Shown piece by piece: positions 11,820-53,151 of a stretch of DNA of 64,000 nucleotides. The position numbers and the translations under genes are program-made. The notes under the pieces were generated by a model. It saw nothing but the letters and a program-made list of their open reading frames with translations. It searched no databases and was not told where the DNA came from. This DNA is from Saksenaea vasiformis B4078 (taxonomy: Eukaryota; Mucoromycota; Mucoromycetes; Mucorales; Saksenaeaceae), in the NCBI GenBank assembly GCA_000697055.1, contig JNDT01001577.1, positions 17,461-81,460 of the forward strand, written 5' to 3'. The stretch's first letter is position 1; each line of letters begins with the position of its first letter.

Positions 11820-13100
11820 CTAAGTATTTTTTACTTTGCCATTGGCTACATCCTCGTCTTTTGCCACATTTTCTTTCTTCTTGATGATTTGTTCGATTTC
11901 GAGGTTATAGCGCCTTGAGAACACTTCTATATAATAGCTGGCACCATTCCAAACGCTGGCAGCAAACATAGCAACGAGAAAGGCGGTGTGTAACCAAAAA
12001 CTTTTGTACAGGAAATAGGTGGGTATGGTGGTGGCTAGGTTGTACACAAGCTGGAGCAACATAAACATGTAGATCTTGTATTTCGCTCCGAATATAAAAG
12101 ACGCGTGTTGAATAAAACCTTTACGACCTTGCGAATCGTTGAGTAACCAGGAATATGATGTTAGTCGAAGACCTGATTCGATTTTTTCCCGTCGCTTCAC
12201 AATGATAAAGACAAAGTAAAGCACCTGCCAGATCAGATAGGCGACTGTTGAAAAAACGAATGCATCCCTGAAGCTCATAGTGGGTATCTCAGCGAGAGCG
12301 GGGAAAAGAGTATTTCGTACTGTGGCGTCAGATGATTGCTGGAGTTGGGGCATCCATCGGATCGTGTAGGTCACCAGGGGTGGAAAAATATGAATGAACA
12401 CAGAAGTGACCTTGTCCAATGAATGGAACACGAGCGAATTCCGCCATGTGACGATTGCCCAGGCAACTGGTCCGTTTGTAAGGCAGTACGTGGCGATGAA
12501 CAAGGTCGCCGAAGCGGGAAAGAACCATAAGTATAACAGCGTCATAGCATTAACAAAGTAGCACAGATCGAATATAAAATAATGCCATCTGCGATATCGA
12601 TAAATGACAAAACGCAATGTAAGTAAATAGATCGACTGGATGCTGTAGTAGAGCGGGATCCACTCCGGCACGCGTGAGGCGAGTACAGGTGTTATGCATG
12701 CATTTCCTACGCCAACTACAAATGACAGTTTGTCCCGTGTATGAATGGTCTTTTCATCGCGGTTGATTCGATCATTGATCTGCAGATAGCGATTCATAAG
12801 GCGGCTGTGGATCAATACGCGTTGCTCCTCGAGTTTCTTGGTCTGCGTTCGAATACGATCCTTCGTCTTCGTTGTCCATTCGGATGATTTTGCTCGTAGC
12901 TCCCTTTGTCTTTCGTGCAGCTGAAAGGTCACCTGGTCGAGAGCGGCCGAGAGCATATCGATCATATCGAAGTCGTTTTCAGAGACGAGGTCGGCAGCAG
13001 TCCAGCCCCATTCGTCTAACATGTCTACGTCGAAATCATCATCCTCGGTGTCATTTACAGGTGATCCATTTAGCGAAGGAACCACTACCGGTTGTGCCAT
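11820..13100 (-). CDS. GPC1: glycerophosphocholine acyltransferase
   Basis: Gpc1 (DUF2838 family) acylates glycerophosphocholine to lysophosphatidylcholine, a step in phosphatidylcholine remodelling, in the ER membrane. Single exon of 426 residues from an ATG. An acidic N-terminus and a roughly 70-residue charged coiled segment (residues 60-110) precede RDKLSFVVGVGNACITPV and the family core: VPEWIPLYYSIQSIYLLTLR, YRYRRWHYFIFDLCYFVN, YCLTNGPVAWAIVTWRNSLV and HSLDKVTSVFIHIFPPLVTY. About eight membrane helices follow, then a Lys-rich tail. Being intronless is unusual in this window. Upstream on the same strand lies gene A. Confidence 0.92.
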   Translation of the reverse strand: MAQPVVVPSLNGSPVNDTEDDDFDVDMLDEWGWTAADLVSENDFDMIDMLSAALDQVTFQLHERQRELRAKSSEWTTKTKDRIRTQTKKLEEQRVLIHSRLMNRYLQINDRINRDEKTIHTRDKLSFVVGVGNACITPVLASRVPEWIPLYYSIQSIYLLTLRFVIYRYRRWHYFIFDLCYFVNAMTLLYLWFFPASATLFIATYCLTNGPVAWAIVTWRNSLVFHSLDKVTSVFIHIFPPLVTYTIRWMPQLQQSSDATVRNTLFPALAEIPTMSFRDAFVFSTVAYLIWQVLYFVFIIVKRREKIESGLRLTSYSWLLNDSQGRKGFIQHASFIFGAKYKIYMFMLLQLVYNLATTIPTYFLYKSFWLHTAFLVAMFAASVWNGASYYIEVFSRRYNLEIEQIIKKKENVAKDEDVANGKVKNT

Positions 13101-13732
13101 GGGTGAGTAATTAATCAGGAAGAGAAACTAAGAAACGAGAAACATGTGCTTTTACTTTACTTATCCCAGCATACAATTACACGTGATAATTTTTATCTTA
13201 AGGTCGGAGCACTGGGACTTTCAGAACACGGAACTGGAAGTCCTCCGCGTTATCGTTCCGCAGGATTAAAATTCTCTCACAAAGTTATCGCTGCTAGTAA
13301 CAAGTGATTGTGAATTTGATGTATGTCCATAGTATACTTAATTGAATGACTTTATAAATTCAAATATGTATTTCTTTTTTTATCAGGCACATAGATAGAG
13401 TTTTTCCATCGCACCATTCGGGTTGACCCACAAGCTAAACGCGTTGTCGCTTAGGGCTGGAAGCTTTGAGCCTGCGACAAATGCATTTACAATGATGAAT
13501 AAAGTATTACGCTGGTCGAATAAGCTTTGCGCCAATATGGGGATCAATCTGATGTAACCAGGTTATCACTTTGTGGCCAGTGCATGAACTGGTGACTGCA
13601 TATTCAATTTCCTCAGCACAAACGTGGGTCTTCTTGAATACATAATTTATAGAACGTAGCATAAAAATACATTCAATAAGCATTATGAAAACTTGTCAAC
13701 GATAAGAAAGCATTCGCTATCATTAACAGAAG
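13101..13732. other. intergenic between GPC1 and gene A
   Basis: About 630 bp that must hold the GPC1 promoter and the 3' untranslated region of gene A. AT-rich, with no coding signal I can support. Confidence 0.6.
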
Positions 13733-16700
13733 TTACTGAGAACCTAACTGCCTTGCCAAATTTCGGAACACAGAAGCCTTCTCAAGATTACGTTCTACAC
13801 CTACACCTCGTGCATAACATGTGGCTATCCCGAGAAATACCATATCGAGACCTGACTCGACCAGATCCAGTAGAATATCGAAGCCAATGGTTGGATCATT
13901 CTCGCAACCACTCCATCCATTTAGATGGTATACAGCTACCATAAACTTAGCATATGTTTCGGTCTGAGCAGCTTCTTCAAATGACTTGTACGCTTCTCTC
14001 CGAAGCTGGTCAGCTTCCGACTCGTCTGTCGAAACGTTGGCCAGATTGTGTTTTACCCTTCCAATTGCTACGTCCGCAAGGGTACTCTCGAGTTCATGTT
14101 TGACATACTCATACCACCGCAACGCATGGACTTGATCACTTCCAAATTCTTCATGATATCCTTTTTCAAAGTATTCGCCGACTGCTAACGCGGATTTCGG
14201 ATCGCCCAGTATGCCCCCAATCGAATAATAAATAAATGCTGCTTTGTAGTTCTGCTCGATGTTGTAATGGCTGTTGGTTTCTGTAGAGGAAAAACCAGTA
14301 TGATACCTGTCGCCCAACTCTCTGCATACCGATATTGTAGGGATATATGATGCTTCTTCGAACGTCTCCATAGCCTTTTGATACTCATATTTTTCCCACC
14401 AAATTTTTCCAAGTACACGATAAGCCTCGTGTAACCCTTTCTGCGCTGCCTTCGTCAGATACTCAATAGCCAATGAATCGTTGGCTTCTAAACCTTTCAG
14501 ACCATAAAAGTGCCAGAGTCCAAACTGATATGGAATATCCGGATCGTCGTCATCGTCAGAGTTTACTTTAAGCATCTTGATTAGTCGTTTTTCCATCCCT
14601 TCTTCGGTGTTGAAAGGTTCAGATTCTTTCACGGCTTGGAATTGATTTACGTACTGAAGTTGCCATCCAATAGCTTCGCACGAGGATTCGGTACCAGTCT
14701 TTATCGTCTTGCTATCAAAGGTCCGGTAGTTGCCACTCATAAATACTCTGGTATCTCCGTCCACCACCATTACGCTTTGAAAAGCGATCATGTCACCTCG
14801 TCGAACGTAATCAGAACCGTCCAAATTTGTTTCTGCATCTTCTGCTTCATCTGGCACCACTGATGATAGCATAGTGTCCTCATTGTTGGGAATAAAACGT
14901 ATAATTTTCCTACTTCCAATTGAGTACATTATGCTAAACAAGAGCCTCCACGCCAAACCATTGAAAACTCAAATCAGACTGTTCAGGATCCACATCTGGG
15001 GGTGTAGGATTCATCAAATCGTGCCCATGCACAGCAAGGTCCAGCTCTTTGTCGCAGGAGACGTAATGTACATGAGGGCTGATATAAACGTCTTCACTAG
15101 ACTTCACATATCTCACTTTCACTATGTCCCCATATTTCATGTAGTGAGGATTGGAACCCTCTTGATCGCGCGAGACACTTTCAGGCTCAATAACGACAGT
15201 AACTGGGGGTATTGTTTCGACAATCGTGCGGTTCTTCGCCACGATACCTTCCTCGGGTATTCCCAGGTGGACTTTCTCAGGAATTGGTAGCTCGTGATTG
15301 TGCTCGGATTCTTCGGGATTTTCGAATTTTTTGTATCCCCATTGACCTTCCTCTATCTCTGAAAGCATAATTCTCCATTGACATGCGTGGCCTTGTTGTT
15401 GCTGCTTCTGCAACCCGCGTGCTATGCGTTCTTCGGCATCACTAAGGCAGCAATAGATACAAATGACCTGACATGATATTATTTTAGGCGCTACAATAAT
15501 GCTGGATAACTTACTTGGCCTGTAATACGTTCTTCTGTAATTGAAAAGCCTGCCTCATTGCATGCATGCTGGCAATATTCGGTTGCTGTTTTGCTGTCTG
15601 GAAATTTCTTATCCAGCAAGCTATCAAATAACGCATCCGTCTGCAAAGTAGAGTAAATCGCACTTTCTCTCTGTTTCAGATTCATACCGGCATAGATGCA
15701 GTTGACACACATCCTTTACGTTCTTCTTCGAGAATTCTGCGGTATATAGTCATTTTCAGCATGTAGTTATAGCAGATACGGTCTTCGGAAAGAATAACAT
15801 TCTCGTATGTTTGTTGAACTTTGCTGCTCTCTTCTTCATCTAGTAACATATAAAGAGGCTTCAACTCCTTTACTTGGATGACGGCTTGGTTTGATTTGAT
15901 TGTATTTATCCAATTCTTAACATCATTCCAGAGCAGCAACTGAGAGTCGCCGCCTTAAAGAGAAAATCTTCATTAGTTTTTTTTCTCCTCTTGCATTAAC
16001 CTACCGACTGCGTCCCAGAAGTTGCTTTTTTGGAGCGATTTCTCGATTTCAGTAGTAACTGTACTACGTGAAAGCGATTTTTCTATCCTTGCTACTGTAG
16101 TACTTGGTTCGACATTAGCATCATCTTGCTTATTTTCCTCAGGTTGCAAAACTTCGTCTAGTGTTGGTCCGTCGTCTATATCTCTGTCGGGAATGGTCCC
16201 TGGAATATCGCCACTTTTTCCAGCCTTTTCTTTCTCATCATTTTCTGCAGAAGCTTCATATGCAATTCTTCCGCCTAGAGACCTCATAAGTCTACGAAAT
16301 TTCTACAGAACCTTACCATAGCGCATAATGGAGGGATAATAGTAACCAAACTGTTGGAAAACATCTTGTAACGCGTCATACGTATCTTCATCTTCGTTCC
16401 CAACCAGTAAAGCTGAACGGATAGCTTCCTTAAATTGCGCAGTTGGTTGAATGAGCTCACTATTTAAATGTAGCTGGAACGGTCATTTGGTTACTTATTA
16501 TCCATGAATTGCCCTCATTATACTTACTTCTTTGCAAATCACGTACGCTACATGATATGGTATCATTTTTCCATCGGTACTTCCCATGCGGATAAGGCTC
16601 CTCTCTTTGCATTCCCCTTCTGCACCCGACTTAAATCCTTGTGTGCCTTCCAGTTCATGCTCTCCATCGATGTCCATGGATGAATATTTCAAAATAGCGG

Positions 16701-19037
16701 AACGAGCGGTCGCAGACCGCTTGGCACACTCGACAACAGGCTGCGCAATGAATTCTTTGACCATCATCTCCTTGAAGAACGCGTTTGTCGTAGAAATTTC
16801 AATTGCTTGCTGATCCGCCTCGATCCCGTCAAAATGTCTTCCTCTAGGTATCTCAGGAAACGCGTCGTCGTTGTCGCGCATACTGTTATATATGCTTTTA
16901 ACCTCCTCACGTGTCTCTTCGTCCAGCAAATCGTATAGCGGTTTCATTGACTTAAAGTGAATGCGCGTTTGGTTTGTTTTAACTGAATTTATCCAATCTT
17001 CACATCCCGTGATCACAGAGCTTCCGCCTAGTTAGAGGTCAGTAAATCGTGTAAAATGGGCTTATTAGTCAACAAAGTACCGATTGCTTCAATCTTGGCC
17101 CTTGCGGCCTCAAAATTGACGAAGTGAAACACTAATATTGGTTAACAAGGCAGCCTATTTAACTCGCCAAATTTATCATACTGTTGTTCTCGTCTTCTGC
17201 CTCCGCGAACTCAGAATCTCTTTGAAAAGCACCTTCGACGGCTCTTTTCCAGTTTGCAATCAGCCAACTATCTGGTTGGTCGTTTGCAAGAATTTCGAAT
17301 ACTATGCGTCCACCTAGAACAATGCGATAATTAATATACCCGTCGTTATAGCCGCGCAGGAGCGTACCAAGGGATATGACTTCTGGATAGTAGAATCCAA
17401 AGCGTCCAAACACCTTTTGCAGTTCTTCGTATTTTTTCTCGTTCGATTCAGCATTCAATGCTTGACAGATAGCTTCTTTAAGCTCATCTGTGATCTTTAC
17501 GTATTGTCGATCAAACACGAACTAAACAGAGCACGTAAGTTATCATGGAATTGGTGTATATCGAGTACGAAGCAGATATCTTCGAATCGATAAACTGTAA
17601 ACAAACGCATCTTCCTTGATTTACTAACCTCTCTGTAGGTAACGTACATAACGAAGTATTTCACGCCACTTGTTGCGGACTGCAATTGCCCACTGTTCAC
17701 GGTCATGTGGTGGTGCGCAGCTCCTCTCATAAATGCAGAGTGTTCTTCTGAATGTTCTGGAAAATTTGAAGGAAGGAAGGCATGTGTCCTAGCGTTGGTT
17801 CCCAGCATGGCTTTTTGCACTTTACATTCGATGTGAGGCTTGTTCCCGGCTGACACAACTCTTATCATTCTGCTGATGTCGCTATCGTTGATTAACTCGA
17901 CCGCAACTTCATTAGACGAAAGTCCGCCGAAATAGACTCCTTGAGCAGTTCCAATTCGCCTACGTGTATTTGAAAGTCGAATAAGAGCATTTATATTCTC
18001 ATGAGGATCGGATGGAAGCTCAGTACGTGATACAGATCGAGCGTACTGGTCATTATATATTCTCTGTATCTCAGCACTGGTTAGGTCGTCCAAGAGGTTG
18101 TATATTGGATTGGCGTCAAGCGACTCAAGCATGATCTGATGAATTGCTGTACTCTCCAGCCAACCACTAACATCACCCTTTTCCGATAGAAGTTGCGTTT
18201 CTCCACCTACAAGAAATAATGCTTGTTATGAAAACCGGTTCAGTTATTAACTTAGTGTAAATATACCGAAAGATTTCCACCGAATCTTCTCATTTCTCAT
18301 AACTTCTGAAACTGCTTTTTCTATTGAACCGGTTTTGTATATATATTCATCGCATAAGACCTTTCCTCCTTCAATAGGTGTTAGTAGACAATTGCTGAAT
18401 CTGGGACCGACCTGTCAAGATCCAGTACGGGTAGTAGTAGCCAAATTCTTGGAATACGTGCTGTAACTCAATAAATTTCTCTTCATCGCCAGGTACTTGC
18501 AATGCAAGATCAACTGCTTCCTTAAATTCTCTTGTTGCCCGAAGAGAGGTCGGTGAAAAAAGTATCTACGAAGATCCACACGTTAGTACCTTATTTTCCT
18601 ATCGGTGTCCAACTAACATAACGCCGAGGTATATTGATTGTTTCTATGAACTGCTTGTCCTGCGTATCGCTACCGTGCAACTTGCCCTCAGCTTCTGCAG
18701 CTGATCTGAATCCAGAGGCTCCTGATAATGGGAGCTTGTTTCGTACATAACCTCTTGCGTCTAAGTCGAGTTTCCCCGCGGTCCCAACCACATGCCTTCG
18801 ATTATGCCAAATCTTAAGCGGCCCGTTAGGGTAAAAGTATATGCTTTGACTTCTATCTATCTCAACGGCTTGCTCTTTGGCTTGCTGACCGTTGGCATGG
18901 ATTCCACGCACCCACTCAGCTGGAATGTCCGCATCTGACTGATGGTTTGGACAGTTAGTTGAGGGATGTAAGGTCGAAAACTTATGGTCTCATACAGCAG
19001 TCGCGTACTCGTCAATATTTTTTTGTCCTGTCTCCAT
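13733..19037 (-). CDS. gene A: MACPF-like modules + FAR1-type zinc finger + Sel1 repeats
   Basis: Large protein of unknown function, about 1,495 residues. Fourteen exons join in frame: 19037-18996, 18938-18618, 18565-18412, 18368-18267, 18206-17629, 17521-17368, 17313-17182, 17027-16528, 16473-16317, 16274-16005, 15953-15688, 15640-15515, 15467-14959 and 14909-13733. Three repeated modules each show a helical part ending in an FGYYYP-type motif and (L/T)GG(K/R), then GG....W, then a (K/N)P(L/I)Y.LLD(E/D) motif. This resembles the MACPF-like domain of Mucoromycota Sel1 proteins (recalled, unverified). Exons 12-13 encode a FAR1/WRKY-GCM1-type finger: GF.I, two or three Cys, CQWRI, GQW and HNHEL. 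The last exon carries about six degenerate Sel1 repeats. No signal peptide or membrane helix is evident. Whether it forms pores is unknown; module identity is inference. Confidence 0.72.
15375..15640 (-). other. FAR1-type zinc-finger domain inside gene A
   Basis: Reading on the minus strand across the intron 15514-15468, the encoded segment has the FAR1/MULE DNA-binding layout. An N-terminal helix-rich part holds TATEYCQHACNEAGFSI, a Cys-containing strand follows (VICIYCC), then GHACQWRIML, EEGQWGYKKF and finally ESEHNHELPIP, supplying the C..C..H.H set. In other proteins this fold binds DNA and derives from Mutator-like transposases. Here it sits between the LLDEE part of the third module and a beta-rich region (YGDIVKVRY). 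Both flanking junctions are phase 0 or in-frame introns. Confidence 0.7.
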
Positions 19038-20605: not shown

Positions 20606-21895
20606 ATGTCAACCGATTCCCCTGAACCGAATCGTTCAAAGAGTGACAACATGCATGTACCTCCGCGCATGGCACCGCTGAATGTGCCACTTCCTCGGCG
20701 TCTTCAAACGCTGGCTGTCATGTTCTGGGGTATTGAGCCTTCATTTGTAGTTGGTCTGTTCTGTCTCCTATGCACTATTCCATTCTTTTGGCCCTTTATT
20801 ATTATATACCTTGTATGGATGTTTTTTGACAAGGCGCCAGAAACAGGTGGTCGACGTGTCGAATGGATGAGAAATATGCGCATGTGGAAATATTTTGCAG
20901 ATTACTTCCCAGCGTCCATTACCAAGGTAAGCTTCAGCATTTCTTCTTTTTCACTCTCTTGATTGATGATGGATGATAGGAAGCGGATTTGGATCCATCA
21001 AGAAACTACATTTTTGGGTAAAGTAGTAGTAAGAGAGAAGAGGGGAACGGGGTGGACGCGTTTCTTATCTGATCGCATAGTTATCATCCACATGGCATCA
21101 TTGCCATGGGAGCTGTCGCGACTTTTGCCACGGAAGCACTTGGATTTTCAAAATTATATCCAGGGATTGTAGCCTCATTGATGACCATTCAGTCAAATTT
21201 CCTGTTCCCAATTCATCGTGATTATCTATTAGCTCATGGCATATGCTCTGTGTCACGTAAGTCTTGCAAGGCGGTGCTACAGTCAGGTCCTGGTCGTTCG
21301 ATTGCCATTGTTGTCGGCGGTGCTTCTGAATCTTTGAATTCTCGTCCTGGATCGATGGATTTAACGATTAAACGACGACTTGGATTTGTGAAGATCGCTG
21401 TGGAAACGGGTGCCAGTCTGGTACCCGTTTTAAGTTTTGGCGAAAATCAATTATTTGATCAGGTGAAGAATGACGATGGAAGTTTGCTACGTCGTTTCCA
21501 AAAACGAACAAAGCAAATCTTTGGTTGGACAATGCCTCTCTTTCACGGACGCGGCGTATTCAATTGTAAATAAGAGAAAAAAAGGCACTCAGGCAGGTCA
21601 CTTAATTGCTGTCTTTTTTTTTTCTTGCAGATGATATGGGAATTATGCCTTATAGACGTCCAATGAATATCGTCAGTATGTGTAACGCAGGAAAAGATAT
21701 CCGAAATAATGTCTCAAACTTTTCTTTATAGTTGGTGAGGCGATCCATCCGCCAGCAGATACCGAAGGACGTAGTCAAGAAGAAATCGTGCAAGAGCTTC
21801 ATCAGCGCTATATGGACAGTCTTCGTGCTATCTACGACAAGTACAAGGACGTTTATGCTCCCGATAGGATCAAGGAGATGGAATTCGTTGAATAA
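20606..21895 (+). CDS. DGA1: diacylglycerol acyltransferase type 2
   Basis: DGAT2-family enzyme that transfers acyl-CoA to diacylglycerol, making triacylglycerol in the ER and on lipid droplets. Five exons: 20606-20926, 20980-21017, 21081-21565, 21631-21675 and 21732-21895 (350 residues, normal length). Two adjacent hydrophobic helices lie near residues 45-80. DYFPASI holds the conserved YFP motif. The catalytic HPHG is formed across intron 2. Downstream are PGRSIAIVVGGASESL, RLGFVKIAVETGASLVPVLS with FGE, and a C-terminal GEAIHPP. All diagnostic motifs are present, so it should be active. Its stop lies 35 bp from that of the convergent PHOSPHO-type gene, so 3' untranslated regions probably overlap. 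Confidence 0.94.
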
Positions 21896-28049: not shown

Positions 28050-31049
28050 ATGCAGTCTCAACTGGGACGAATTCATGTGGCTCGAACCATCGCCTGGTGT
28101 CGACCCACCTTGATGCCGAGGCAATCCATAAGAGGATTGAGGACCTCATGCATACGCCGAGCTGACACAATTTACGATCCTGTTACGGACATGACTGTAC
28201 GCAAGTTGTACTCTTGTTTCTTCTTCTTCTGCAACTAACTGACGGTATGTTTGATAGATAAAGTCAGGTTCGGGTTTGCAGGAACAAACAGGCATGTTAT
28301 ATCTTGACAACGTGTTCCCTTTGCGAATGAGTGCGCTGGATATTCGTCAATGGTTATTCCGAAAGACGCGTCAGTCGTTAGAAGGAACAGCTCACAAGGT
28401 GATACCTGGCGAAGAGATGCCTCACCAATTTGCGATTCGTGAAATACAAGAACGGTAAATACACAAAGAGATAGGTTAATGGATTGAAAGGAAGAGTAAT
28501 AAAAGAAAATAGAACCAAGGATGGCGGTGCTATTGTCAAGTTTACTTTTCAAAGTTCAAATGAAGAACGCAACAAAGCAGCAAAAGACATTGTTTCACGT
28601 GTGAGTAAACACCTCACTGATCATAACAAGGTAGCTCCGTTCAACTTGCAACCACTACGTGCCTTTCTCGTTAAAGGAGAGCCTTTCCTGGAAGATATCG
28701 TCACACGATATCCTACCACGCGGCTGCGGATTGAATTTCAAGGTGAGCCTGTCGGTGTGGAGAAACTGTACAAGCATCTGCGCCAGTACGGTCGTCTGCA
28801 TGATATTTCACTCTATCCATCACCTCTTACGTCCAAGGATCCGCCACGTTACGCCATTGCACAGTTTACGCGTATCCGATCAGCAACGAGTGCAAGAAAC
28901 TGTCTTCACGGTCACATCATCCATGGAAGTCGGCTCAATGTGTTGTACGAACGACAGTTGGTAAGAGCAAATGAGCAGGAGGATTGGTAGATGCTTATCT
29001 TTAAAAAAACAGCGACCCAACGTTGTGAAAGAATGGCTTGTTAGTCATCCTCGTATTACAGTGCCCGTTCTTGCTGCGGTTGTAGCTGGTGCCACCTATG
29101 CCGTGTTCGACCCTATTCGCATCTTCTTTGTCACTTCAAAGATTACACAGAGGTTCAACCCTGAGGAATACGCGTTGTATCGTTGGCTTCGTAGTGAAAC
29201 GTGGGCACGACTGATACCTGCTGAACCGCCTGAACAATTGTCTGTATGGGCAAAGGATACCGAACACACAGAGAAGCTAAAATCGTGGATGAGAGAAAAT
29301 CCAGGTAAGTGGATGTAGAAGGCACTAACAGTCGAATAACTTTTTATTCTTTTTAGAGACATTTATCCTTGTCACAGGGCCTAAAGGATCTGGCAAATCA
29401 TTACTCGTCAACGCTGCTGTTGCCGATCGAGGGTAAAGAGCATGGAACGAAGGTTATTTTGTTGTGCTGATAAGGGGATAATAGGCAAAAGATATTTTTG
29501 GATTGCGAGGAGTTATCCAATGCACGAAATAAGGCGGATATGGCCAAACTTCTTGCAAAAGAAGTAGGATACTTCCCCATTTTCACCTGGGTGACTTCAA
29601 TGAGCAGTCTTCTCGAAACCTTGGTGACAGCAACCACGGGACAGAAAGCAGGAATCACTTCTTCACACGATTCCCAGATCAAGGATATTCTTGAAACATT
29701 GGCCATTTCCTTGCGAAACATCGGACCAAAGGTTGCAGCGGAGCATGCGCATACAGAGAATATGCTTGAGCGAATGAAGCGTTGGGTAGCTTCTCTTTTG
29801 CATGAATCGGAGGAGGTTATCAGCGAAAAAGCGCCCCGTAGCGACGAGAGGGCTAACCATGCTAACGTACCTGTGGTGGTGGTTGAAAATTTCATGTACC
29901 GTGAAACCGCCAAGAACGCGTCGCTGTGGAACGATATTGCTGAATGGGCTGCGCTTCTTGTCGAAAATGAGATTGCCCATGTTGTCTTTGTTACCGTCAA
30001 TCCAAGTGCATCAAAGACATTAGGCAGAGGTAACGAAAAGTTGGTAGAAAGTTGAGCGACTGACGGATTCTATAAAGCATTGCCTGGAAGAAGTTTCTCC
30101 AATATCATGTTGACAGACGCCCCGGCAGAAGTCTCTATGTCTTTTGTTTCAAAACAATTAGGTAAACCAAGGTTGCTGGAGCGGACTGTTTCACTAACAA
30201 CTACTAGATCTGGAAACGGTGGATGAGCGATTGCGTGATATTGTAGTTGCTTTAGGTGGTCGTCTGACAGAATTGGAGCTGCTTGTGTCGAAGATGAAGA
30301 TGGATATGGATGCCGAAGGTAAGGGAGACTGCGGAATAAAAACGAAGGTATGCTTTGCTGACAGCAAGATAAAAGTTGCATTTGAGGATATTATTCAACG
30401 AAACATTATTGAAATCCGGAAATATGGATTTGGCGACGCCACCGATAATGAACAAGGCGCTATGGAATGGTCTTCGATTCAATTCTGGGAAATTGTGAAA
30501 CGTCTTGCAGAAGCCAAAAGTGTAAGTTTCACTTCATAGATTAACGGATGATAACGGTTGGGTGAAACGTAGATTAACTATGATGAGCTTCGTTGGACAT
30601 TACTGTTCAACGGTGACGAGAAGCCGTTACGAGCTATGGAACGGGCAGAACTGATTACGATTTTACAGAAAGATGGTAACTGGAGGAGAACGTGATGACA
30701 AATGTCTGATCCTTTTTTTTTTACAGGACGACCCAATTCCATTCGACCTGGAAAACCGGTGTTTTACACGGTGTTTAACCGACTCGTTTCAGATAGTGTC
30801 TTTGCGGCATCTATGGAGATCGAGACAAATAATTCATTGAAGAAAGCAGCGGAGAAAGAGATGACGAAGTTTGAGGAGAAGATTCTTTCTTTGTCTCAAG
30901 TATATAACGGCAGACCACCTCGTGAAATAGATGGTCGTATTCGACATATGCTTGGTAAAGTAACTACATACCAGAAAAGAATTGAAGAGTATGAAGCGAA
31001 TATCAAGCAAGCCAAGGAAGTAATATCCAAAGCATGGGAAGACGCATAG
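28050..31049 (+). CDS. YME2: mitochondrial escape protein 2
   Basis: Inner mitochondrial membrane protein of the Yme2/RNA12 family, involved in maintaining mtDNA and nucleoids. Ten exons: 28050-28196, 28258-28454, 28495-28960, 29013-29304, 29357-29432, 29485-30029, 30078-30161, 30208-30521, 30573-30675 and 30727-31049 (848 residues, typical length). The first 45 residues are Arg-rich without acids, a mitochondrial presequence. An RRM-like domain follows (residues ~190-290). A membrane helix lies at about 300-320 (ITVPVLAAVVAGATYAVF). The P-loop GPKGSGKS opens an AAA-like ATPase region, and the C-terminus is a coiled coil. Exon 8 is read through a GTAAGG at 30319 because splicing there would break the frame. 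Confidence 0.93.
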
Positions 31050-31196
31050 ACTGGAACATGTTACCGAGGAAGGAAAGAAACCGCCTCGGGGAAATAAAAA
31101 AATGAATGACCTTTGATCCATACTTTCTACCATTTCTTCATTTTCTTCCAACAAACAACTGCATCCTTTTTTATTACTTATGTTCGTTCATCTGGT

Positions 31197-32597
31197 ATGT
31201 TAAGACGAGGTATATTCACCAACGATCGCTATAACGAAAAGACGAAGGAGTCACATGAATGTGATGACAAGGTGATTTGCCAACAACAACAGAAGAAGAG
31301 AAAGAAGAAGAAACAGTCGGATGTGATTAATATTGAATCCCTTGATGGCTTACTTCAAGAAAACCTTCAAAACCTCGAATTAATTCGTTCTTTATGTGAA
31401 CAAGCAAAAGCAAGTGGTAGCAGGAATACCCAACTCAAATTGTACCATGCTTTGATGGAAACTGCCAAACGAGCAACAAGAACAACAACAACAACAACAA
31501 CAACAACCAAAGACTCCCCACCAACGTCATCTACTTCCTCTTCTTCCTTTTCTTCCTCTTCCTCATCTACCTCCTCCTCTACTACCTTTTCTTTTCGAAA
31601 AGGGAAGACAAAGCAATCCGAAGACCATGGGCAAATGATGATATACGAAGCTCAGCAGTTATTGAAACGACTTACGCTAGACGATGGGTATAGTCGATAT
31701 ATGGACTGTGAAGCCCAATTTTTATTGGCGAGTTCGTTTGGCGATGGTTTATGTGTGGATCATGAACGAGCGTATCAATACTATGTTCAAGCATCGAAAC
31801 AAAATCATGCCGAAGCAACCTATCGAACAGCTGTTTGTCATGAACTCGGTATTGGCACACGTAGCAATCTTCCGCGCGCCATGGCATTCTACCGCAAGGC
31901 CGCCTATTTGTCTCATTCACCCAGCATGTACAAATTAGCAACCATTCTCTTTCGCACCAAAGGTCGTGAAGCAGTACGCTGGTTACGGCGGGCAGCTGTA
32001 TGCGGTGAAAGTGTTGAAGCCCTTCATACATTGGCCATGCTGCATTTTGGCTTTGTGGATTCCCCCGAGCTGATTGCCGACCCGTCCTATGGTGTCCAGT
32101 TGTTGGAAACGGCGGCCCAACGCAATCATATACCAAGTCAGGTCAGACTAGGCCAAGTGTTCGAGACGGAATGGGGTATGGATGCATTTCAATCCATCTA
32201 TTGGTATTCCAGGGCTGCTCTTCAAGGAAGCGCAGATGCAGCCTTGGCTCTTTCTGCCTGGTACCTCACAGGTGCTGACAACATACTCGAACAGTCCGAT
32301 TGGCAAGCTTACATGTAAATAGACTTAACTTTTTTTTTTTACATTTTCACTTACCTTATCTATGTCTGTATCTCTAGGTGGGCACACAAGGCAGCAATGA
32401 CAGATCAGTACCAAACGATGTCTAATGCATGTTTTGTTGTTGGACTGTACTGGGAATGTGGGATTGGAGTTGCTGCACCCTCTATCGAAGAAGCAGCAAG
32501 ATGGTACAGGAAGGCAGCAGAGCAAGGTCATGATGCAGCAACACAACGTCTCGATCAATTAGGTCTTTTAGACCATAGAGGTCAAACCTCCACTTAA
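31197..32597 (+). CDS. SKT5/CHS4-like Sel1-repeat protein
   Basis: Sel1-repeat protein resembling activators of chitin synthase (Skt5/Chs4). Two exons, 31197-32314 and 32378-32597, give 445 residues. A Lys-rich N-terminus is followed by poly-Thr and poly-Ser tracts, encoded by (ACA)n and (TCC)n-like DNA. About seven Sel1 repeats follow, with the usual A.AQ/LA..Y..G.GV....AA.WY.KAA pattern; the last reads AARWYRKAAEQGHDAAT. No C-terminal CaaX box is present, unlike yeast Chs4. It starts 147 bp after YME2 on the same strand. A link to chitin synthesis is inferred from repeat order and fungal context only. Confidence 0.75.
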
Positions 32598-40055: not shown

Positions 40056-40203
40056 AAAGAAAATGTAGATACGATTTGGAAAATTCCAAAAATCATGATA
40101 AGGCATCATGAACTTTGTTTGTCGTTTTTCCCTCTTTTTCATTTATAAGCTTTCCTTATGACGCTTACATAAGACGTTTCCAATACTGCAAGAACACCTA
40201 GAA

Positions 40204-41219
40204 CTGAACTGTCAGAACAGCAGCGGTCAACGATCTATGGAATGAGGGAAGCGGGATTGTCCTTAGGCGGAATTGCAAAGTCCCTGAAGCTGTCGAAATC
40301 AACTGTCCAGCACATTATAGAAAACATAAAGAAAACGGGAACTACGACATCCAAGCCAAGACCTAGGAGGCCTAAGAAGATAACAGAACGTGAGCAGTGC
40401 GTACTTGACCGCGACGTCAGACGCCATCCGCGTTTACCCCTGAAGGTACAACACGCCAGTTTCTCCGATTCGACTGTCAACGTCTCATACCCGACATTCA
40501 GGAAAGTGGTTCGCGATCTTGGTTTTCTTTCGTGTCGACCAGTTCGTAGACCCAGGTTAACGGAAAGACATAAGGGAACAGGTTGCAATGGGGAAAAGAG
40601 TATGTCGATTGGACTGTGGAACAGTGGCAAAAGGTCATCTAGTCAGAGGAGTCCAGATTTCGTGTCGAAAGCAACGATGGCAGAGAGCAAGTCCTACGAA
40701 AGAAAGGAGAAGCTCTTATGCCACAGCATATCAAAGAGACCACGAAGTATGGCCGAGGTTCTGTTATGGTGTGGGGCTGCTTTACAGCTAGCGGAGTCGG
40801 CCCTATCGTTCCTGTGGAAGGCAGGATGAATGGAAAGGCGTATGTGGCCGTCTTGAGGAAGAAGCTGCTTCCCTTTTTGAGGCAGAACAGTCAGAGCGAC
40901 TATATCTTTCAAGAAGATGGGGCGTTGCCCCATACTTCTGCATTTACGACTCGCTGGAAACAGAGAAACAACGTCTCCGGTTTTCCAAACGGCGCTCAAT
41001 CTCGTCCCAGAGGTGCTCAATCGGGTTGAGATCGGGACTTTGTGCAAGCCAGTATGGAAAATCGGAGACATGTTATCAAGAAGTCAGAGGAGTTGGAGGC
41101 CATTCTGGTAGAATAATGGGCCTCTATACCCGAAAGTGTGTGTGTCAGAAGTTAGTTGCTTCTATGCCTGAAAGATGTAAGGCAGTAATAGAAGCCCGTG
41201 GCGGTCACACAAGATACTA
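40204..41219 (+). pseudogene. Tc1/mariner transposase relic with internal inversion
   Basis: DDE transposase remains. An N-terminal HTH (MREAGLSLGGIAKSLKLSKS), a basic hook (RPRRPKK) and a second HTH are intact. WTVEQWQKV is followed by TAG at 40640-40642 where the family has Trp (TGG to TAG). GRGSVMVWGCFTASG and IFQEDGALPHTS give the second catalytic Asp region. The stretch with the third catalytic residue (SPDLNPIEHLWDEIE) lies on the opposite strand, inside 40988-41054. The C-terminus (SMPERCKAVIEARGGHTRY) is forward again but frameshifted. A frameshift also lies near 40570. Terminal inverted repeats were not found. It lies between the two halves of the Fanzor relic. Confidence 0.88.
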
Positions 41220-41385
41220 GATGGCTATACAATTTCAAATAAATATTGCTTATATCTATACTGCTCTGCTCCTCTTTTTATGAGTCTTCTTAGTTATAAA
41301 GTCATGAGATCTAGTTCATGTCGAAAGGTGTGCATCATCAATCTGACTTCGGTGAAGGATCAGGAGGATGAATGAGAAAAAACAA

Positions 41386-43700: not shown

Positions 43701-45015
43701 GCACCAACTGCCAGTTTGTGACCGCCATGACAGACAGATATGAAAATGTCAAACTTGAAAAAAAGAGAAAAAGAGAGTCCACCCATTCAATTGCATGAAT
43801 GTACGGCTGTGTAACTTGCGGATCGATTTTGGTGGATCCTTAATGAGTATATACATTCTATAGCTTGATTCTACCAGAAAATTACTACATCGAGTTGTAT
43901 TAGGTAAAAATGAACGTCAGATCAGCTGTCACTGTCCATAAAACTTGCACTATTAGCATCCTGGACAGTACGTCTTTTCACAGTAATGCAGTGGCAAATG
44001 CTTCCTAAAATACAATTTATATCTTGGAAGTAGGATGAGAAGTTATGCGCGTAGAGCGTGCGGGAATCTGCATCGAAAGCTGCTCATACATTGTTGTTCC
44101 GTGGAAGCAGTTGATGCCTAGAACAACTTGGAGGGGTAATAATGTTACCCGAAGAACTAAGACTAATAGAGAGAAACAGATGTATTAAGATTCATCAAAT
44201 CGAATTGATATCAGAGGGTTGTAACTGTATTGTAACAGTTTTATGAATAGATGCAGAACCGTATTAATTCGAACATCGCGACTTATCCTTGCTTTCGGAA
44301 CAGCTTGCTTCACGGCAAAGAGCGCAGTGTCTCAACCGTTTCCTGCTCTGAATTGGTTGTGGTAGTCTTCGGAGGTGAGGTACAAGAGGTTGATCCTGAT
44401 GGTATTGTAGGTGATGCAACTAACTGGGGCAGAATGGGAGAAAGTGCTGTGGCAGGCGTTATAAGAGGTTGATGGGATTTTCCATTGGTCTCTTATCATG
44501 TTTCTAATTTCCTCGAAATATGGTATGAACAAGGATCCAGATTGAAGAACAGCATCGGCGTCAAAGCTGTTTACATTTAGATCGTTGTGGATATGTCACA
44601 CATAAAAGTCCATTGTGCCTTTATGTCTTTTTGTCTTCTTTGTTTTTTTTTGGTATTATTTATTGGAGATTTCAAAAGAGAGTGTGTTAATGGCCAATCC
44701 GCTATGTCTGTGTTAATAGTTAGTCTGCTCCAATTTTTTGGAAATTCTGCACTTTAATGGCGAATCAGGTTGCCACCCGACTTAACGTGATAAAAAAGCA
44801 ACTTCATTGGATATTAACACCACAGAGATGGGCCCGCCAGCCGACGGATGGACACGAGCGGACATTCTCAATATTTACAAGGCTCCTGCCAATCAGATCG
44901 CCGTACCCGAGCAGTGTGTTGTGCCCTTTTCGGTCATCATCAAAGTCACACGAATCTGGGCAAGCCCAACACAAAAGGAGGGGCCATTTCTTGCTCCGCC
45001 GATAGACGTTCCACA
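43701..45015. other. intergenic with possible frameshifted 5' coding of the reductase gene
   Basis: No independent gene. Between 44828 and about 45030 one plus-strand frame starts with ATG (MGPPADGWTRADILNIYKAP) and looks protein-like, but it is one frame off the reductase gene that begins at 45016. Confidence 0.45.
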
Positions 45016-46942
45016 ATGGGTAGCAGCAGGCGAACGGTTGCGGGAACGATCGTCCTCCTTTTTTTCCTACTCATTCTAATACAGTCATGGTCATCTGCTC
45101 AACTTATCTTTTCATGGTCGGACACAGAAGACATACTGGACATTAGCTCTGCCGACGAGGTGCATACAGCACGCTATCAACGCGATTACAGTACTTTGCA
45201 AAGTTATCCCAGCACGTTGGGCGGCATTTACCTATGTATGCTGTGTTGCATTGGGTGGAAACGAAAAAGGCGGTCTATGCAACCTAAAACGATGGAAGAG
45301 AGCGCATGGGCAGTGTGGATTCGTCAATGGCAGTGTCGCTGGCGCCGCTGGCTTAATTACGAATGGCAATGGCTAAATATCACCATGAGCGTCGGTCGAT
45401 GCCTCTGTCTTTTTGGCCTTCTTGGGTTGAATGCCATACAGCTGTTGCGAGAACGACGGATTCCCGATGAAGAGAGCCCTGGTGATGGGGTAGATAGAAT
45501 TCAGCGCGATATTTACCAACAAGAGCTGGCCAATCGAACAGCTCAACTAGCGCTTGTTAATTTCGCCATTGCCGTCGTTCTCTCAGCCCGTTACTCTCTG
45601 CTGCTACGCCCCTTTGGTGTCGATCGGGCACGTCGATGGCATATGTGGTTTGCTCGCGTTGGGTCCTGCTGCGTTCTTTTTCACGCTTGTTTCCAGTTTG
45701 CACGCAATTATCCTCGCCAGAACTATGACTTGCTGTTAACTTTTTCAAGTAATATTCGCTATTTGACCGGTTTCTTAATGATGGCTGCCACGTTTGTCCT
45801 ATTTGCCGGTTCCCACCCGCTCGTACGGATGGTTTCCTACCGGTTGTTCCGGTATTCACATCTCACAGCATTTACGATCCTAGTCTTACTGAGCTTCCTA
45901 CATCATTGGTCCTTTGCAATCTTTTATGTGGCCGTGATAGGTGTCTGGCTTGTGGATCAATTTCAGCAATATGGCGTAGGAAACGTCCGTGCACGATTGG
46001 TATGCATGGAAGCACTTGGTGGAAATATATTGAAACTACAAGTCAAACCCGCCCGCCATTATGATGCGATACTTCCTGGTCAATTTATTCTCTTGTCCCT
46101 CCATCCATCCACAATTGCTGGATGGATACAAGCTCATCCTTTTTCTATTGCACGTGTGGATACATGCACAGATAATAAGCCGTCCGATGCGACAGATCAC
46201 GCCAATCCATTTGCTGTGACCACGCGATCACATAGTGCCTTTTTGGAAACGACACCTGATCAGACCACGATAACCTTCTATATCAAGGCAATCGGAATGC
46301 ACACACGGGAATGGTTCAAGAAGGCACGGATAGGCGATATAGAAGACATCTCGGTACTGATGAGCAAACCGCTAGGCCGACCTCTTTTGAGTATGAGTGG
46401 CCACGGATATGGGGACTTTGAGCAAGTGGTGCTGGTGGCTGAAGGCATTGGCATCACACCTTGGTTATCTGTACTACAGTACATCGATCAGCAGCAACAT
46501 CATGTTCGAACCAAGGAAGTGACACTTATTTGGAGTCTTCGTGACATAGGTAAAAACAAAAAAAGGAGAACTTTCCTTTTTTTATATGAGCTTTGGAAAT
46601 AACGAGATCAACTTTGTAGCGATGCTCCACGTATTTGCGGAAGAACTATCCTCTTTGACGACCTCCACACACATTGACTACTTCATTCACATTCATCTCA
46701 CACAATCAGACACACTAGAAGAAGGATTACCATCCATCCCTCATGCATATATTGAATGCGGTCGTCCCAATTACGTAGACCTGCTAGAGAAAGTACAGAC
46801 ACGCCGTCCTCAGACAGATGTTGGCCTTGGCTTATGCGCACATGATGAAACGATCAAGCAATGTAGCAATATAGCTCGGAGTGCAAAATACAGCAATGGC
46901 TATGCATGGTGGAGAATCCACAGTGAGCATTTCCAGATTTGA
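45016..46942 (+). CDS. ferric-reductase/NADPH-oxidase-like membrane flavocytochrome
   Basis: Transmembrane electron-transfer protein of the ferric reductase/NOX superfamily, moving electrons from NADPH via FAD and two haems. Exons 45016-46549 and 46620-46942 (618 residues). A membrane anchor lies at residues ~8-30, then about six helices. Candidate haem His residues lie in RRWHMWFARVG, CVLFHACFQF, YSHLTAFTI and SFLHHWSF. HPFSIARV is the FAD-binding motif, GIGITPWLSVL the NADPH-binding glycine motif, and GLCAHDETI occupies the usual C-terminal CGP position with Cys kept. The intron was chosen because only the GTAG acceptor at 46619 keeps the frame. The true N-terminus may lie further upstream in another frame. 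Confidence 0.85.
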
Positions 46943-47778: not shown

Positions 47779-50700
47779 CTAACTCTCCGCCTTGGAAAAC
47801 CATTCTAGTGCTTTGATAGTGTCTTTTTCGACGCCTAACCCTTCCATATACAATGCTGCAAGAGCACGTTGTCCAGTTTTGTTGCCCTGGTTGGCTGCAA
47901 GGCGATACCATTCGACCGCTTTCATATAGTCTCGAGCAACGCCATGTCCAGCCAAATACATATTGGCAATTTCGCTTTGAGCGGGCGGATAATTTTGATC
48001 TGCTGCGCTCAAAAGCAGTTCCATCGCCTTTGTGAAGTTTTGCTTTACGCCATAACCATTCCGATACATTGATGCAAGGTTATATATCCCCTGTACATTT
48101 CCCTGCGCAGCTGCTTTTCTATACCATTCAAGTGCTTGTACATAATCCTGTCTGACGCCTTGCCCAAGGCGATACGCAATCCCAAGTACGTTCTGTGCGT
48201 CACCGTCATCCTGCTTTGCTGCCTTCAAAAGCCATTCAAATGATTTTATGTAGTCCTGATCAACGCCAACCCCATCTCTGTACATCAATGCAAGCTTGTA
48301 TTGTCCGTTTGAGTCATTCTGCTCAGCTGATTTGCTATACCAGTTGAACGCTCCTTCAAAGTCTTGATCGACACCTTTTCCAGTCAAATACATATGTGCG
48401 ACCTGGTTTTGCGCCTGCAAATAATTCTGATTTGCTGCCTTCATGAACCATTGGAACGCCTCTCTATCATCTTGATCGACATTTATACCATCTTTGTATA
48501 TCATTCCAAGAGTGTACTGGCACAATGCATCGTTTGTTTTTGATCGTAGTTTTTTTATGCGTTCAGTTGCTTCCGCATCATATTGACCAATATACTGTTT
48601 GCAATCAGACGTTGACATAACTTCAGCTTGTTGCTCCATGCCGACTTCCTCACTTAGTTTGAAAGCTTCTTTGGAAGGTTTGTGTTCTAAAGCCGAATCG
48701 CGTTGTTCACAAAGATTATTCTGTTCTTCAGCCTTGCGCAGCCATTTAGCCGCTTCGATTGGATCACAATGGACACCTCTCCCGTGTCCGTACATATCTG
48801 CGACCTTGCTTTGCGCCCTTGCGTCACCTCGCTCCGCTGCTCTCAGAAACCATTTGAACGCTTCCACGTGGTCCTGATCGACGCCTTTCCCATCTTCATA
48901 TATTATCCCAACCATGTATTGTGCATCTGAATTGCCTTCATTCGCTACTTGCAAAAATAGTTCCAATGCCTGCATGTATTCCTGATCAACGCCTTTTCCA
49001 TCTACATAAGCCATTGCGAGTTCGTGCTGCGCATTCGGATCGCCCTCATTAGCTGCTCTTGTGAACCAAATGAACGCTTCAGCATAGTCCTGAATAACTC
49101 CTATACCATCCCTGTACATTATGCCAATGTTATACTGCGCATCGCAATTGCCTTGGGCAGCGGATTTTTCGAACCATTGGACTGCCTGCTCAAGGTCTTG
49201 ATGCACGCATATACCACGACTGTACATACAGGCTAGATTATATTGCGCTCTGGAATCACCCTGATTGGCAGATTTTTGGAACCATCTGAACGCATGAAAA
49301 TCGGATTGTTCTACTCCTTCGCCACAGAGATACATTGTCCCAACGTTATACTGAGCGTCGACGTCCCCCTGTTCAGCAGCTTTGTAAAACCAGTCAAACG
49401 CTTCGGCATCGTCCTTCTCCACCCCTTTGCCACCGCTGTACATGACTCCTAGGTTGTACTGAGCTTTGACGTTACCGCGACTAGCTGCTTTCATGGACCA
49501 CTGAAATGCTTCCACTTCGTTTTGAGCAATCCCCTCTCCATGACTGTACATATAAGCAAGTCTGTTACATGCTCCGTCATGGATCTGATTAGCAGCTGCT
49601 ATAAACCATTGAAACGCTTTGGTGTAGTCTTGATCCACCGTGTCGCCCTTTAGATACGCGATCCCAAGGTCATATTGCGCATTGGCATATCCATTTGCTG
49701 CAGCTTCATTAAGCCATTTAATAGCTTCATGCCTATCTTGATCCACGCCTCTGCCTTCACTATAGATAGCTCCGAGGGAGTACTGAGCTGCTTTGTGCTT
49801 TCTGGTGGCGGCTTCTCTAAACCAATGTATTGCTTTCGCATTGCTTTGACGCACGCCTACTCCATCTTGATATGCTATTGCAAGCGCATACTGTCCATCG
49901 GCATGATTCTGTTCTGCAGCCTTTTGGAACCAGCGGACCGCTTCTTCATCGTTGCGTTCCACTTCTTTCCCAGTCTTATAAGCCACTGCTATAAGGTATT
50001 GCGCATTGGCATTGCGACCATCAAGAGCGTCTGAAAATAGTTCGCATAGATGAATAAATTCCTGGGAGGCACCATACCCTTTCGCATACAAAAGCCACAG
50101 CTTGTCCTGTGCTACATGATGATCCAAAAAGCTCGTTATGTCGCTCGTGTCTAATGCGTTGGGGATGTTATGACTGATGCGAGTGGTCGAGTCAAAATGA
50201 CTGTGTGTGGAATAGCGATGTTTCATATGTTGCTTAGTTAGGAATTCCACGGATATCTTTAGGCTATTTGGTAGAAGACGGTATGTTGGAAGAAGCTCTT
50301 TAAGTTGAACTATTATGGGGTTCTTTGGAATAGACTCGATCCATCTTTTGAAGTCGAGATGTTCGGAGGTTACAGTACAACGGTCATATGGTCGGTGTAG
50401 AAGCGCAGGATCACCACCTACAGAAGGTAGTTTAGCTATTACATAGAGAGAGACAAATGAGTTGGCGTACCAATTGCTCTGTAGCGTCGTTCTTTGCGGA
50501 TAACGCTTAAAAAATCACTATCTCCAAAGATACCATTGCATTCAATTGCAATTTTACCACCTAGACTATACATTAATTACACATTATTTCAAGATGAAGT
50601 AGATTTACCTAGTAACAGATTCAGTGGATAAAAGTAGCCGTACAACTGAAACGCACGTTCGAGCTTTTCCCATTTTTCCTTCAAAGCATAGGACGCGAGT

Positions 50701-53151
50701 GCTTCCTCAACTTCATTTATAAAGCTTCTATTTGCTCGAATAGAGTCATGCAAACGAAGCTAATGGGAGTCGTCTTTCAGAACGGGCTTCAATAATAGCC
50801 AAACTAACCTCATAGCGTGGCACGCGTATCATAAGACAGCATGATTCGGCATTCGTTTTACGAACGTGGCCGTCTTCGTGTTTGAGTTGCTGATAGCCCA
50901 AATACATTCTATCGGCTGAATCAAACATGTACGCTATGCAAAATCCAAGATCTTCCATATTTTTATCTGTGACGTATTCTTCGTATAAACCTGTTGTCTC
51001 TCGAATACGTTTAGAAAGAAACGCAGCTTCGTATTCAAATGTGGTGCCTTCAATGTTCTCGCAGTCAGGATCGTGTGCTTCGACTGGGGAAAGGGCGGTT
51101 AAATGTCCGTCACTATGAATCCCTCTGTTCCAGTGATGGACTAACGCCTTTGGCAAGTCCGTTGGCAAGGTGTTGCTAACCTGGTTTCCACATGATTTGA
51201 CACACCAACGAGTGTTAGGTGGGTTTACATAACAATCCTTTGTTCCAGCAATTACAGCTGTACGGGCAAAAGACAGCCGGGGGTTTGTAGTCCGTCTTGC
51301 AACAAACGCCATGTCATACAAGGTTTGCTGTGGAGCGGTGCACAAATAGACAAGCATGCGATCTCCATTCGCATCTGTTGTCTCACTTTGAAATGCGATG
51401 CTATCCCCCACACAGACATAGCCAGAGTTATCCTTGTCCGCACCCTGTTCAGGCGGCTGCGTACCATTGCACAAAGACATTCCGAAATTACTGTCATTTG
51501 TCGTGTGTCGAATGATTTTCCTAGCCACAGTCGATAAGCTTCTAGCCTAGAAAGTTTTACTTGATATAATTTACCATTCTTGAACCAGCGATGATGATAG
51601 TTTATCTACCGTAATAGGAAAGTACTCTTGTTTCTGCGTGAAAGTGCTTGTGTTTGTTGGACTGCTGACGGAAATCTCGAAAGGAGGTAACGACAGAAAT
51701 TTCTTCGTTTGTTTTCCAGCCACGCATTCAACGCCCGGGTACAAGAGCTGCACGAAGACTACGTCTCCATATTTCACACGTTGATAGTAATAGTTACCGT
51801 TTTTCGTCATCAGACGAACAGCAACTGGATGCATCTGGTCTTCATACAAATCTTTTGACATCTTCTCAGTATCTACCAGACACAGGATACTGCCTAAGTT
51901 ATCAAACAGATTAGGCAACATCGAGGCGATATATGATAATGAACGTTCTTACTGGTCTTCTCATCGGCTCGATGTTCTACATCATGATTGGCTTTTTGGC
52001 ATTGGAACTCACACATACATGGGTTGGTCTGATGCGTATCTTGGCTGTTTACCGCAAACTTGAGAGAACAATTATAAAATATAAAATTGTCGTTGATCAT
52101 TTTAACATTGTAAATATCTTTTACTTGCAGGCGCTGCTCCTCGCTTAATATGTTGTACATAGGTTTCACGCCCTGGAATTGTACTATCTGCGGCTTGAGC
52201 ATCAGCGATTCCTTCCACTTTTGAAAATCCCCTTCTAGTAGGGCTTCTGCATAGCCTCCTAATAAAATGCAGGTATATATCTATCGAGATACAATTTGAA
52301 GACTACACCAACCTCGAGCTTCCCAGTATCTGCCATCTTCTTTTGCTCTGATAACCTCTTCTGCTATGGTATCAGTCGGAATGTTTACTTTATAGTGTCT
52401 ATCCATTTCTGCTGGGCACCCCTTATGTTCATAAACAAGCCTGCCGCCTAGGAAAGTTATAACTTTTTTATTTGTGCATCCAGAAGGCTTACATACCCAA
52501 TAAAATTTTTGAAGGGTAGTAATAACCAAATAGATCAAATATCCGCTGCAAGGCATCGTACTTTTCCTCGTTGGTTGCTGCTTCTAACGCTTCTCGAATT
52601 GAGTCTGAAAAATAACCATTTCCTCTGAGACGTTCTGGAGTGACACATATCTAATGGACGACGTTACTACTGGTTCTTCCCGCTGTAATTCTCACCTACC
52701 TCACCACAACAGATATACACAGCGGTACACGTTGTCATTTCGTTTGTGTCGTATGATTTAGTAGATAAGCATGAGTTATAACTGTTCGCTGCCCCAATAT
52801 CGTATGCAAAGGTATCGGGAAAACTGTCGTGGAATTCGCAGTCGAGCGAGATTTCGCTGTGGATGTTTTCTTTTCTAACAGTCCTTGTACATGCGTGCTT
52901 CGCGGGCTGTTTAGAGAGGGAACGGAGGTAAATCAAGTCGCAAATATCATCGTCGTGGCCAAGGGTAAACGCAGGCAACTTAGCGGTACTTCCATCAAAA
53001 TGAAGACCGTAGGTACACCGCTCGATAACCTCACTATCTAAATCGAAAGAAGGATGAATCCTATTCTAAAAGACAGATCAGCAGATGAAGATAGTCAGGT
53101 ATCTGGCGCCACCTTCAAAAATGCTATACTCCAAATGCTAGGAAAAGCCAT
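47779..53151 (-). CDS. gene B: two MACPF-like modules + 19 Sel1 repeats
   Basis: About 1,636 residues, function unknown. Exons join in frame: 53151-53113 (tentative), 53065-52700, 52650-52497, 52447-52313, 52258-51953, 51893-51575, 51520-50809, 50759-50609, 50560-50471 and 50417-47779. Two modules carry the motifs of gene A: a helical part ending in FGYYYPSKILLGG or YGYFYPLNLLLGG, then GG...W. The first is followed by KPMYNILSEEQ and beta-rich sequence with KYGDVVFVQLL and VGDSIAFQSE. The last exon runs from the second module straight into 19 Sel1 repeats (36-mers like AQYNLGVMYSGGKGVEKDDA), 12 plus 7 separated by a ~60-residue linker. No signal peptide or membrane helix. The MACPF-like call is recalled and unverified; the Sel1 part is certain. 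Confidence 0.78.

Follow-up and report, generated by a model that had tools for sequence, protein, structure and literature searches.

A FAR1-type zinc finger inside a family of MACPF-like/Sel1 proteins of Saksenaea vasiformis: probable capture from a regulator-like gene

Background

The FAR1 and WRKY zinc fingers belong to one superfamily. The FAR1 fingers (Pfam PF03101) of the plant FAR1/FHY3/FRS proteins and of the transposases of Mutator-like elements (MULE) share a C-C-H-H pattern of zinc ligands, a W and an HNH motif. FAR1 domains are reported in some fungal MULE groups (PMC6446971), regulators are reported to have been born from transposons (PMC10027918), and a WRKY domain is reported as part of a plant immune receptor (PMC8685902).

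Gene A, located in the 64,000-nucleotide stretch of Saksenaea vasiformis B4078 DNA analysed here (the window), combines a FAR1-type finger with domains of a different kind. Its product matches the Pfam families to which fungal MACPF-like proteins belong, namely, MACPF_1 (PF22693; 58 bits, cut-off 27.5) and MACPF (PF01823; 50.7 bits, cut-off 21.5), over three stretches each, but differs from these proteins in having three tandem modules together with a finger, a beta-rich region and Sel1-like repeats; pore formation would be a putative property. The finger keeps the C-C-H-H, W and HNH residues of the plant and MULE FAR1 fingers, to which it appears to be homologous via standalone FAR1 proteins that this genome also encodes; unlike the fingers in PF03101, it scores below the Pfam cut-off, is acidic, and resides in a MACPF/Sel1 protein that lacks a MULE domain. 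The plant NLR RRS1 (PMC8685902) offers a parallel, in that a WRKY-class finger was captured there, too, by another multidomain protein family, although gene A encodes a different class of protein, has an acidic finger and has no recognised effector.

MACPF, FAR1 and Sel1 are known parts; here they are joined by what is probably a domain capture whose donor, host and fate are all out of the ordinary. We consider it probable that the finger was captured once, from a regulator-like gene, and was then recast as a zinc module that does not bind DNA. Among the matches listed in our search of the open literature, which leaves most subscription journals outside its scope, no paper is seen to join MACPF to FAR1 or Sel1 in fungi; three plant papers contain both terms MACPF and FAR1. 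On this reading, gene A represents a well-marked transfer in which a regulator-type zinc finger, exon borders included, entered a protein family unrelated to its own; a single genome contains donor-like genes, relatives that lack the finger and a decayed copy. The charge difference described below also offers a test of whether such fingers, once released from DNA binding, become protein-binding modules of general use.

Structure of gene A

Gene A occupies positions 13733..19037 of the window on the minus strand and consists of 14 exons that are separated by 13 GT-AG introns of 42-136 nt and yield an open spliced frame of 1501 aa. The order of the domains is three MACPF-like modules, the FAR1-type finger, the beta-rich region and the Sel1-like repeats. 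Exons 1-2 (19037-18996 and 18938-18618) encode the start and the N-terminal half of module 1; exons 3-5 (18565-18412, 18368-18267 and 18206-17629), the C-terminal half of module 1 and the N-terminal half of module 2; and exons 6-8 (17521-17368, 17313-17164 and 17027-16528), the C-terminal half of module 2 and the N-terminal half of module 3, where the module borders in exons 3-8 were set by eye. Exons 9-10 (16473-16317 and 16274-16005) contribute the core of module 3 (with FGYYYPSIMRYGG across the junction of the two exons) and an acidic linker, and exon 11 (15953-15688) contributes the C-terminal part of this module, ending in phase 0. Exon 12 (15640-15515), with both ends in phase 0, encodes the first 42 residues of the finger; exon 13 (15467-14959) encodes the zinc-ligand part of the finger and the first half of the beta-rich region, with no intron between them; and exon 14 (14909-13733), the second half of the beta-rich region, the Sel1-like repeats and the stop. 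The start ATG is our choice; the models of three related loci (L021, L025 and L027) likewise open with M at query residue 1. Splice-aware alignment of the locus recovers the same 13 introns, which is a consistency check only, because the alignment was guided by the gene A protein itself.

The best Pfam MACPF stretch corresponds to residues 678-863, and the motif FG-x-YYP-x5-GG, which we take to be akin to the MACPF signature, is detected by eye three times in the protein. The Sel1 repeats (PF08238) score 38.6 bits, above the cut-off of 30.7. No signal peptide is seen by eye, and the protein may well be cytosolic.

The beta-rich region has no Pfam match in gene A, and the best match among nine family members has E 0.012; it leaves the impression of a beta-trefoil, which is our presumption. 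By eye, residues 1011-1205, as aligned across the family (alignment A2), seemingly fall into two halves that resemble each other around Y-x-x-x-GD and W. A profile search of the PDB with this alignment returned a single match, at E 0.34. In a large protein database, gene A residues 880-1240 have no homologue at E<=0.001 and exon 13 has none at E<=10, which we attribute to the small number of fungal genes in that database and do not regard as proof of rarity.

The FAR1-type finger of gene A

The original prediction placed a full FAR1 layout in exons 12-13 of gene A. All five motifs, GF.I, CC, CQWRI, GQW and HNHEL, are indeed there, but the match to Pfam FAR1 is weaker than the word full implies: the 116-residue piece scores 17.1 bits (17.1-17.3 across scans; E 0.0091), whereas the cut-off is 28.1. 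The same holds throughout the family: of nine members, four have a Pfam FAR1 match at E<=1, all nine stay under the cut-off, and the best score is 22.5 bits. The zinc ligands of gene A are C946 (15452-15450), C969 (15383-15381), H996 (15302-15300) and H998 (15296-15294), all on the minus strand, so that the C-C-H-H pattern of FAR1 is kept and the finger is predicted from its residues to hold zinc. Exon 13 folded alone from its own sequence gave a mean pLDDT of 34, too low a value for a WRKY-like sheet to be recognised, and a PDB profile search with the finger family (profile A1) returned nothing at E<=5. The span 14959..15953 is wider than the finger: exon 11 closes the third MACPF-like module, and exon 13 also encodes the initial half of the beta-rich region.

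The introns on the two sides of exon 12, 15687-15641 and 15514-15468, are both 47 nt long, of the GT-AG type and in phase 0; the frame stays open through all 1501 residues, as expected from the proposal that frame-keeping introns join the finger exons to the rest of the gene. The reverse possibility, that these exons form a separate gene, appears unlikely from the sequences compared, because nine other loci carry the same two introns (see below). On the gene model, the Pfam matches and these loci, the finger is an integral part of a MACPF-like/Sel1 gene, and the combination is as unusual as had been supposed. The expectation that the joined protein would match FAR1 or MULE profiles is borne out for FAR1 only, and then below the cut-off: a Pfam scan of the whole protein detects no MULE domain at E<=5, and the contig that carries the window (C280) has no MULE match among those listed for the genome.

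The finger-bearing family

Searching the source assembly (38.7 Mb, 666 contigs) uncovers nine further loci that carry the finger in the same order as gene A (L021-L028 and L032), two of which match gene A only in part: L024, which is cut by a contig end, and L032, which is decayed. All nine splice-aware models have introns in phase 0 at residues 898 and 940, and eight of them share a phase-2 intron at 1110; additional introns in L022 (1027, 1139), L028 (1124) and L025 (75, 493) are possible artefacts of the aligner. The aligned span is free of in-frame stops in seven loci, with one stop in L024 and three in L032. Such a distribution would fit a history in which a subfamily of intracellular MACPF-like/Sel1 proteins took up, once, a finger encoded by two exons of a FAR1-type, regulator-like gene, before the subfamily spread to about ten loci in the genome.

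The ligand columns (C48, C71, H98 and H100 of the finger alignment) are invariant in all nine non-decayed fingers, that is, gene A and L021-L028, as are W73, W85, N99 and eight further columns. The exception, and hence the reason that the ligands are intact in nine of the ten fingers, is L032 (contig C230), which has lost three of the four and was left out of the finger alignment, the tree and the charge comparison; both L032 and L024 were left out of the identity and dN/dS calculations. Across the remaining eight members, mean pairwise identity is 46% for exon 12, 37% for the zinc part, 41-47% for the MACPF modules, 27% for the beta-rich region and 45% for the Sel1 region.

The decay of L032, as well as the somewhat lower conservation of the zinc half compared with the MACPF modules, could be taken to indicate that the finger is a decaying passenger, a neutral relic. 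Such a fate, however, would hardly leave the ligands unchanged in nine fingers, and the median dN/dS of the finger, 0.21 (8 of 28 pairs computable, with dS near saturation), is close to the 0.17-0.21 of the MACPF modules. For L026/L027, the most similar pair, dN of the finger is 0.22 against a near-saturated dS of 2.26, a ratio of about 0.10. We consider a relic highly improbable.

Origin of the finger

Apart from the MACPF family, the genome encodes three FAR1 proteins that lack a MACPF part, on contigs C596, C445 and C428 (loci L029, L030 and L031). Their Pfam FAR1 scores are 30.1, 26.3 and 28.3 bits, respectively, with two of the three above the cut-off; the fingers are followed by long Q-, S- or H-rich tails; and none of these contigs has a MULE match among the at least 48 MULE-domain matches of the genome. 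Judging by the scores and the tails, we take the standalone proteins to be regulators, perhaps of transcription.

The standalone and MACPF fingers share their exon structure. In the standalone genes, the first finger exon, preceded by an AG acceptor, is 42 residues long and is followed by a phase-0 intron, as in gene A. This exon starts with ATG, possibly the true start, in two of the three genes and with CTC in the gene on C445, the only one that must have an exon upstream. The transposase fingers lack the intron: of the 15 strong transposase matches (E<1e-15), 14 cover profile positions 14-97, and in all 14, counting near-copies, the reading frame continues uninterrupted across this place. 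Comparison of profiles with hhalign points the same way, with a probability of 99.84 (E 2e-29, 37% identity over 102 columns) for the MACPF fingers against the standalone set, compared with 95.98 (E 2.4e-9, 18% identity) against the transposase set, and 98.20 (E 2.9e-13, 20% identity) for the standalone against the transposase set. In a tree of 25 fingers, a branch with support of 100/100 separates the 9 MACPF and 3 standalone fingers from 13 transposase fingers; the MACPF fingers all lie to one side of a branch supported at 91/87, and the standalone group is supported at 94/93. The 13 transposase fingers were obtained from the 15 strong matches by dropping L034 (partial cover) and L050 (identical to L049), with weaker matches (L045, L035 and others) kept outside the tree; one of the 13, L036, sits at the edge of a contig where no MULE domain is visible, but is nearly identical to L047.

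These observations bear on the suggestion, made in the original prediction, that the finger was acquired by direct exon capture from a Mutator-like transposon, whose insertion left FAR1 exons in the gene. The genome does contain MULE domains, several of them next to FAR1 fingers; the MACPF-protein and transposase finger profiles are distantly related; and one family member, L021, shares its contig (C551) with a MULE match, at a distance of more than 30 kb. Nevertheless, the transposase fingers fall on the far side of the fully supported branch and do not have the exon and intron that the MACPF and standalone fingers share, and of the 26 genome matches at E<=1 obtained with the gene A finger piece as the query, none is at a MULE locus. 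Direct capture was rejected on the strength of the tree, the intron and the profile scores, and we rate it as very unlikely; MULE are at most a distant ancestor, via the standalone FAR1 family.

A standalone protein used as the query has matches of 21-25% identity at five transposase loci that extend to residues 138-142, beyond the finger, and other transposase matches stop earlier; the finger matches to the MACPF loci stop at residues 108-119. The alignments thus suggest that the standalone family keeps an older, longer layout, and from this layout we infer that the finger passed from a regulator-like gene to a MACPF gene and not in the reverse direction, a polarity that would be read, for the present, from a single genome.

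Finger-less relatives and the junction

The window contains a second member of the broader family, gene B (47779..53065, minus strand, approximate ends), which consists of a MACPF-like part, a beta-rich region, traces of a second MACPF-like module and 19 Sel1 stretches (577 bits). There is no finger between the MACPF part and the beta region of gene B, and its flanks align on either side of the missing segment. When the locus was aligned with eight queries, the version without the finger scored higher for six and slightly lower for two (finger left out versus kept: 199 versus 205 for L022 and 248 versus 256 for L023).

Relatives of this kind are numerous. Used as a query, the beta region of gene B has 81 matches in the genome, and a MACPF query has at least 155. 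We took the N-terminal half of the beta region at 46 finger-less loci; an upstream MACPF end could be assigned to 33 of these, and the other 13, including gene B, are outside the count. In the 33 paired loci, the gap between MACPF and beta is 168-359 nt (median 211; at most 284 nt in 32), compared to 459-510 nt in the ten finger-bearing genes, the two measures being slightly unlike, from search matches in the former case and from spliced models in the latter. Because the finger needs 309 coding nt, 32 of the 33 gaps are too short to hold it; the single 359-nt gap, on contig C561, could in principle fit one, but the gene A finger query has no match on that contig. The 46 finger-less loci have no contig in common with the ten finger-bearing genes except for gene B, which shares the window contig with gene A. 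The finger-less loci on C69 and C113 have equal scores and gaps and may be near-copies. Judged by these locus numbers rather than by a rooted tree, the finger-less state is likely to be ancestral.

How the finger entered is indicated by the junction. Of eight finger-less stretches (L051-L058), the junction was read, by eye, in L052 only; there, as in gene B, it seems to comprise a phase-1 intron and, after it, a short conserved segment that is absent from the finger genes. The intron in question in gene B, 51574-51521, is in phase 2 before W|KIIR in five of eight alignments, its placement by the aligner varying with the query. On the phase-1 intron and conserved stretch read in these two loci, we reject a clean exon insertion into an existing phase-0 intron. 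The form of this junction suggests that a linker gave way to the finger, and the capture would then have put the finger in place of an ordinary connection between the MACPF-like module and the beta-rich region.

Charge and present role of the finger

From the start of the finger to the HNH motif, net charge is -4 to -11 in the MACPF members, +6 to +9 in the standalone proteins and +3 to +15 in the transposases; all nine non-decayed MACPF-protein fingers are thus acidic, in contrast to 16 of 16 comparison fingers, which are basic. For the zinc half alone, the respective ranges are -5 to 0, +6 to +10 and +1 to +10. The whole gene A protein is acidic as well (net charge -86), so that the acidity of the finger may in part follow that of its host, which somewhat weakens the argument from charge. 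The retention of the ligands combined with the loss of positive charge nevertheless leads us to view the gene A finger as, most likely, a zinc-stabilised protein-binding module that does not bind DNA. The zinc-holding residues would have been kept while the finger turned acidic, and such a small module might join or control the MACPF part and the beta/Sel1 part. The charge difference translates into a sharp and cheap prediction: zinc yes, DNA no.

The DNA-binding or nuclear role put forward in the original prediction would have the protein reside in the nucleus, with the MACPF and Sel1 parts regulating a working finger. It finds some encouragement in the full retention of the four ligands, the W and the HNH residues, and in the nearest relatives, which are regulator-like, with Q- or S-rich tails and, in the protein on C596, a KKRK cluster. 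One K-[KR]-x-[KR] cluster each is present in L021, L024 and L027, but the other six of the nine non-decayed members, gene A among them, have none; the charge of the zinc half departs from that of the standalone proteins in every member; and the region that follows the basic finger of the standalone proteins is unmatched in the MACPF loci. A DNA-binding finger is, accordingly, a claim that the charge data go against, and we regard it as unlikely.

A further reading is that the finger is an integrated decoy, mimicking the FAR1-type proteins of the fungus itself so as to trap an invader protein directed at them and trigger the MACPF part, as is proposed for the WRKY domain of plant RRS1. Relatives of the presumed donor are still present at three loci, the MACPF family is large and modular, and the integrated WRKY domain is a precedent in the plant world (PMC8685902). 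A decoy, however, might be expected to keep the positive charge that the finger has lost, no invader protein is known, and selection was looked at by pairwise dN/dS only, and we regard a decoy as unlikely. By analogy with RRS1, the entire family might be involved in intracellular defence or self-recognition, with the tandem MACPF-like modules as the effector, the helical Sel1-like repeats as the platform and the fungus's own FAR1-type finger as an integrated sensor or decoy, a scheme that we likewise deem improbable. The preferred reading is still a captured finger turned into a protein-binding zinc module.

Other features of the window

A further Sel1-repeat gene lies at 31110-32597 on the plus strand (66 bits in 31110-32315), with no MACPF match in the scanned piece. 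The neighbouring Pfam matches include DUF2838 (11820-13127), a diacylglycerol acyltransferase (21073-21573), RNA12 (29474-30055) and a ferric-reductase-like protein (44818-46602). Two regions resemble transposases: a Tc1/mariner-like transposase in several frames at 40173-41220 on the plus strand, the 40173-40826 piece of which matches Pfam HTH_38 just above the cut-off of that family and HTH_SB and Tc3 below their own, and transposase-like frames at 60420-62156 on the minus strand, where 61305-62156 contains a Tc5-type DNA-binding domain (62 bits).
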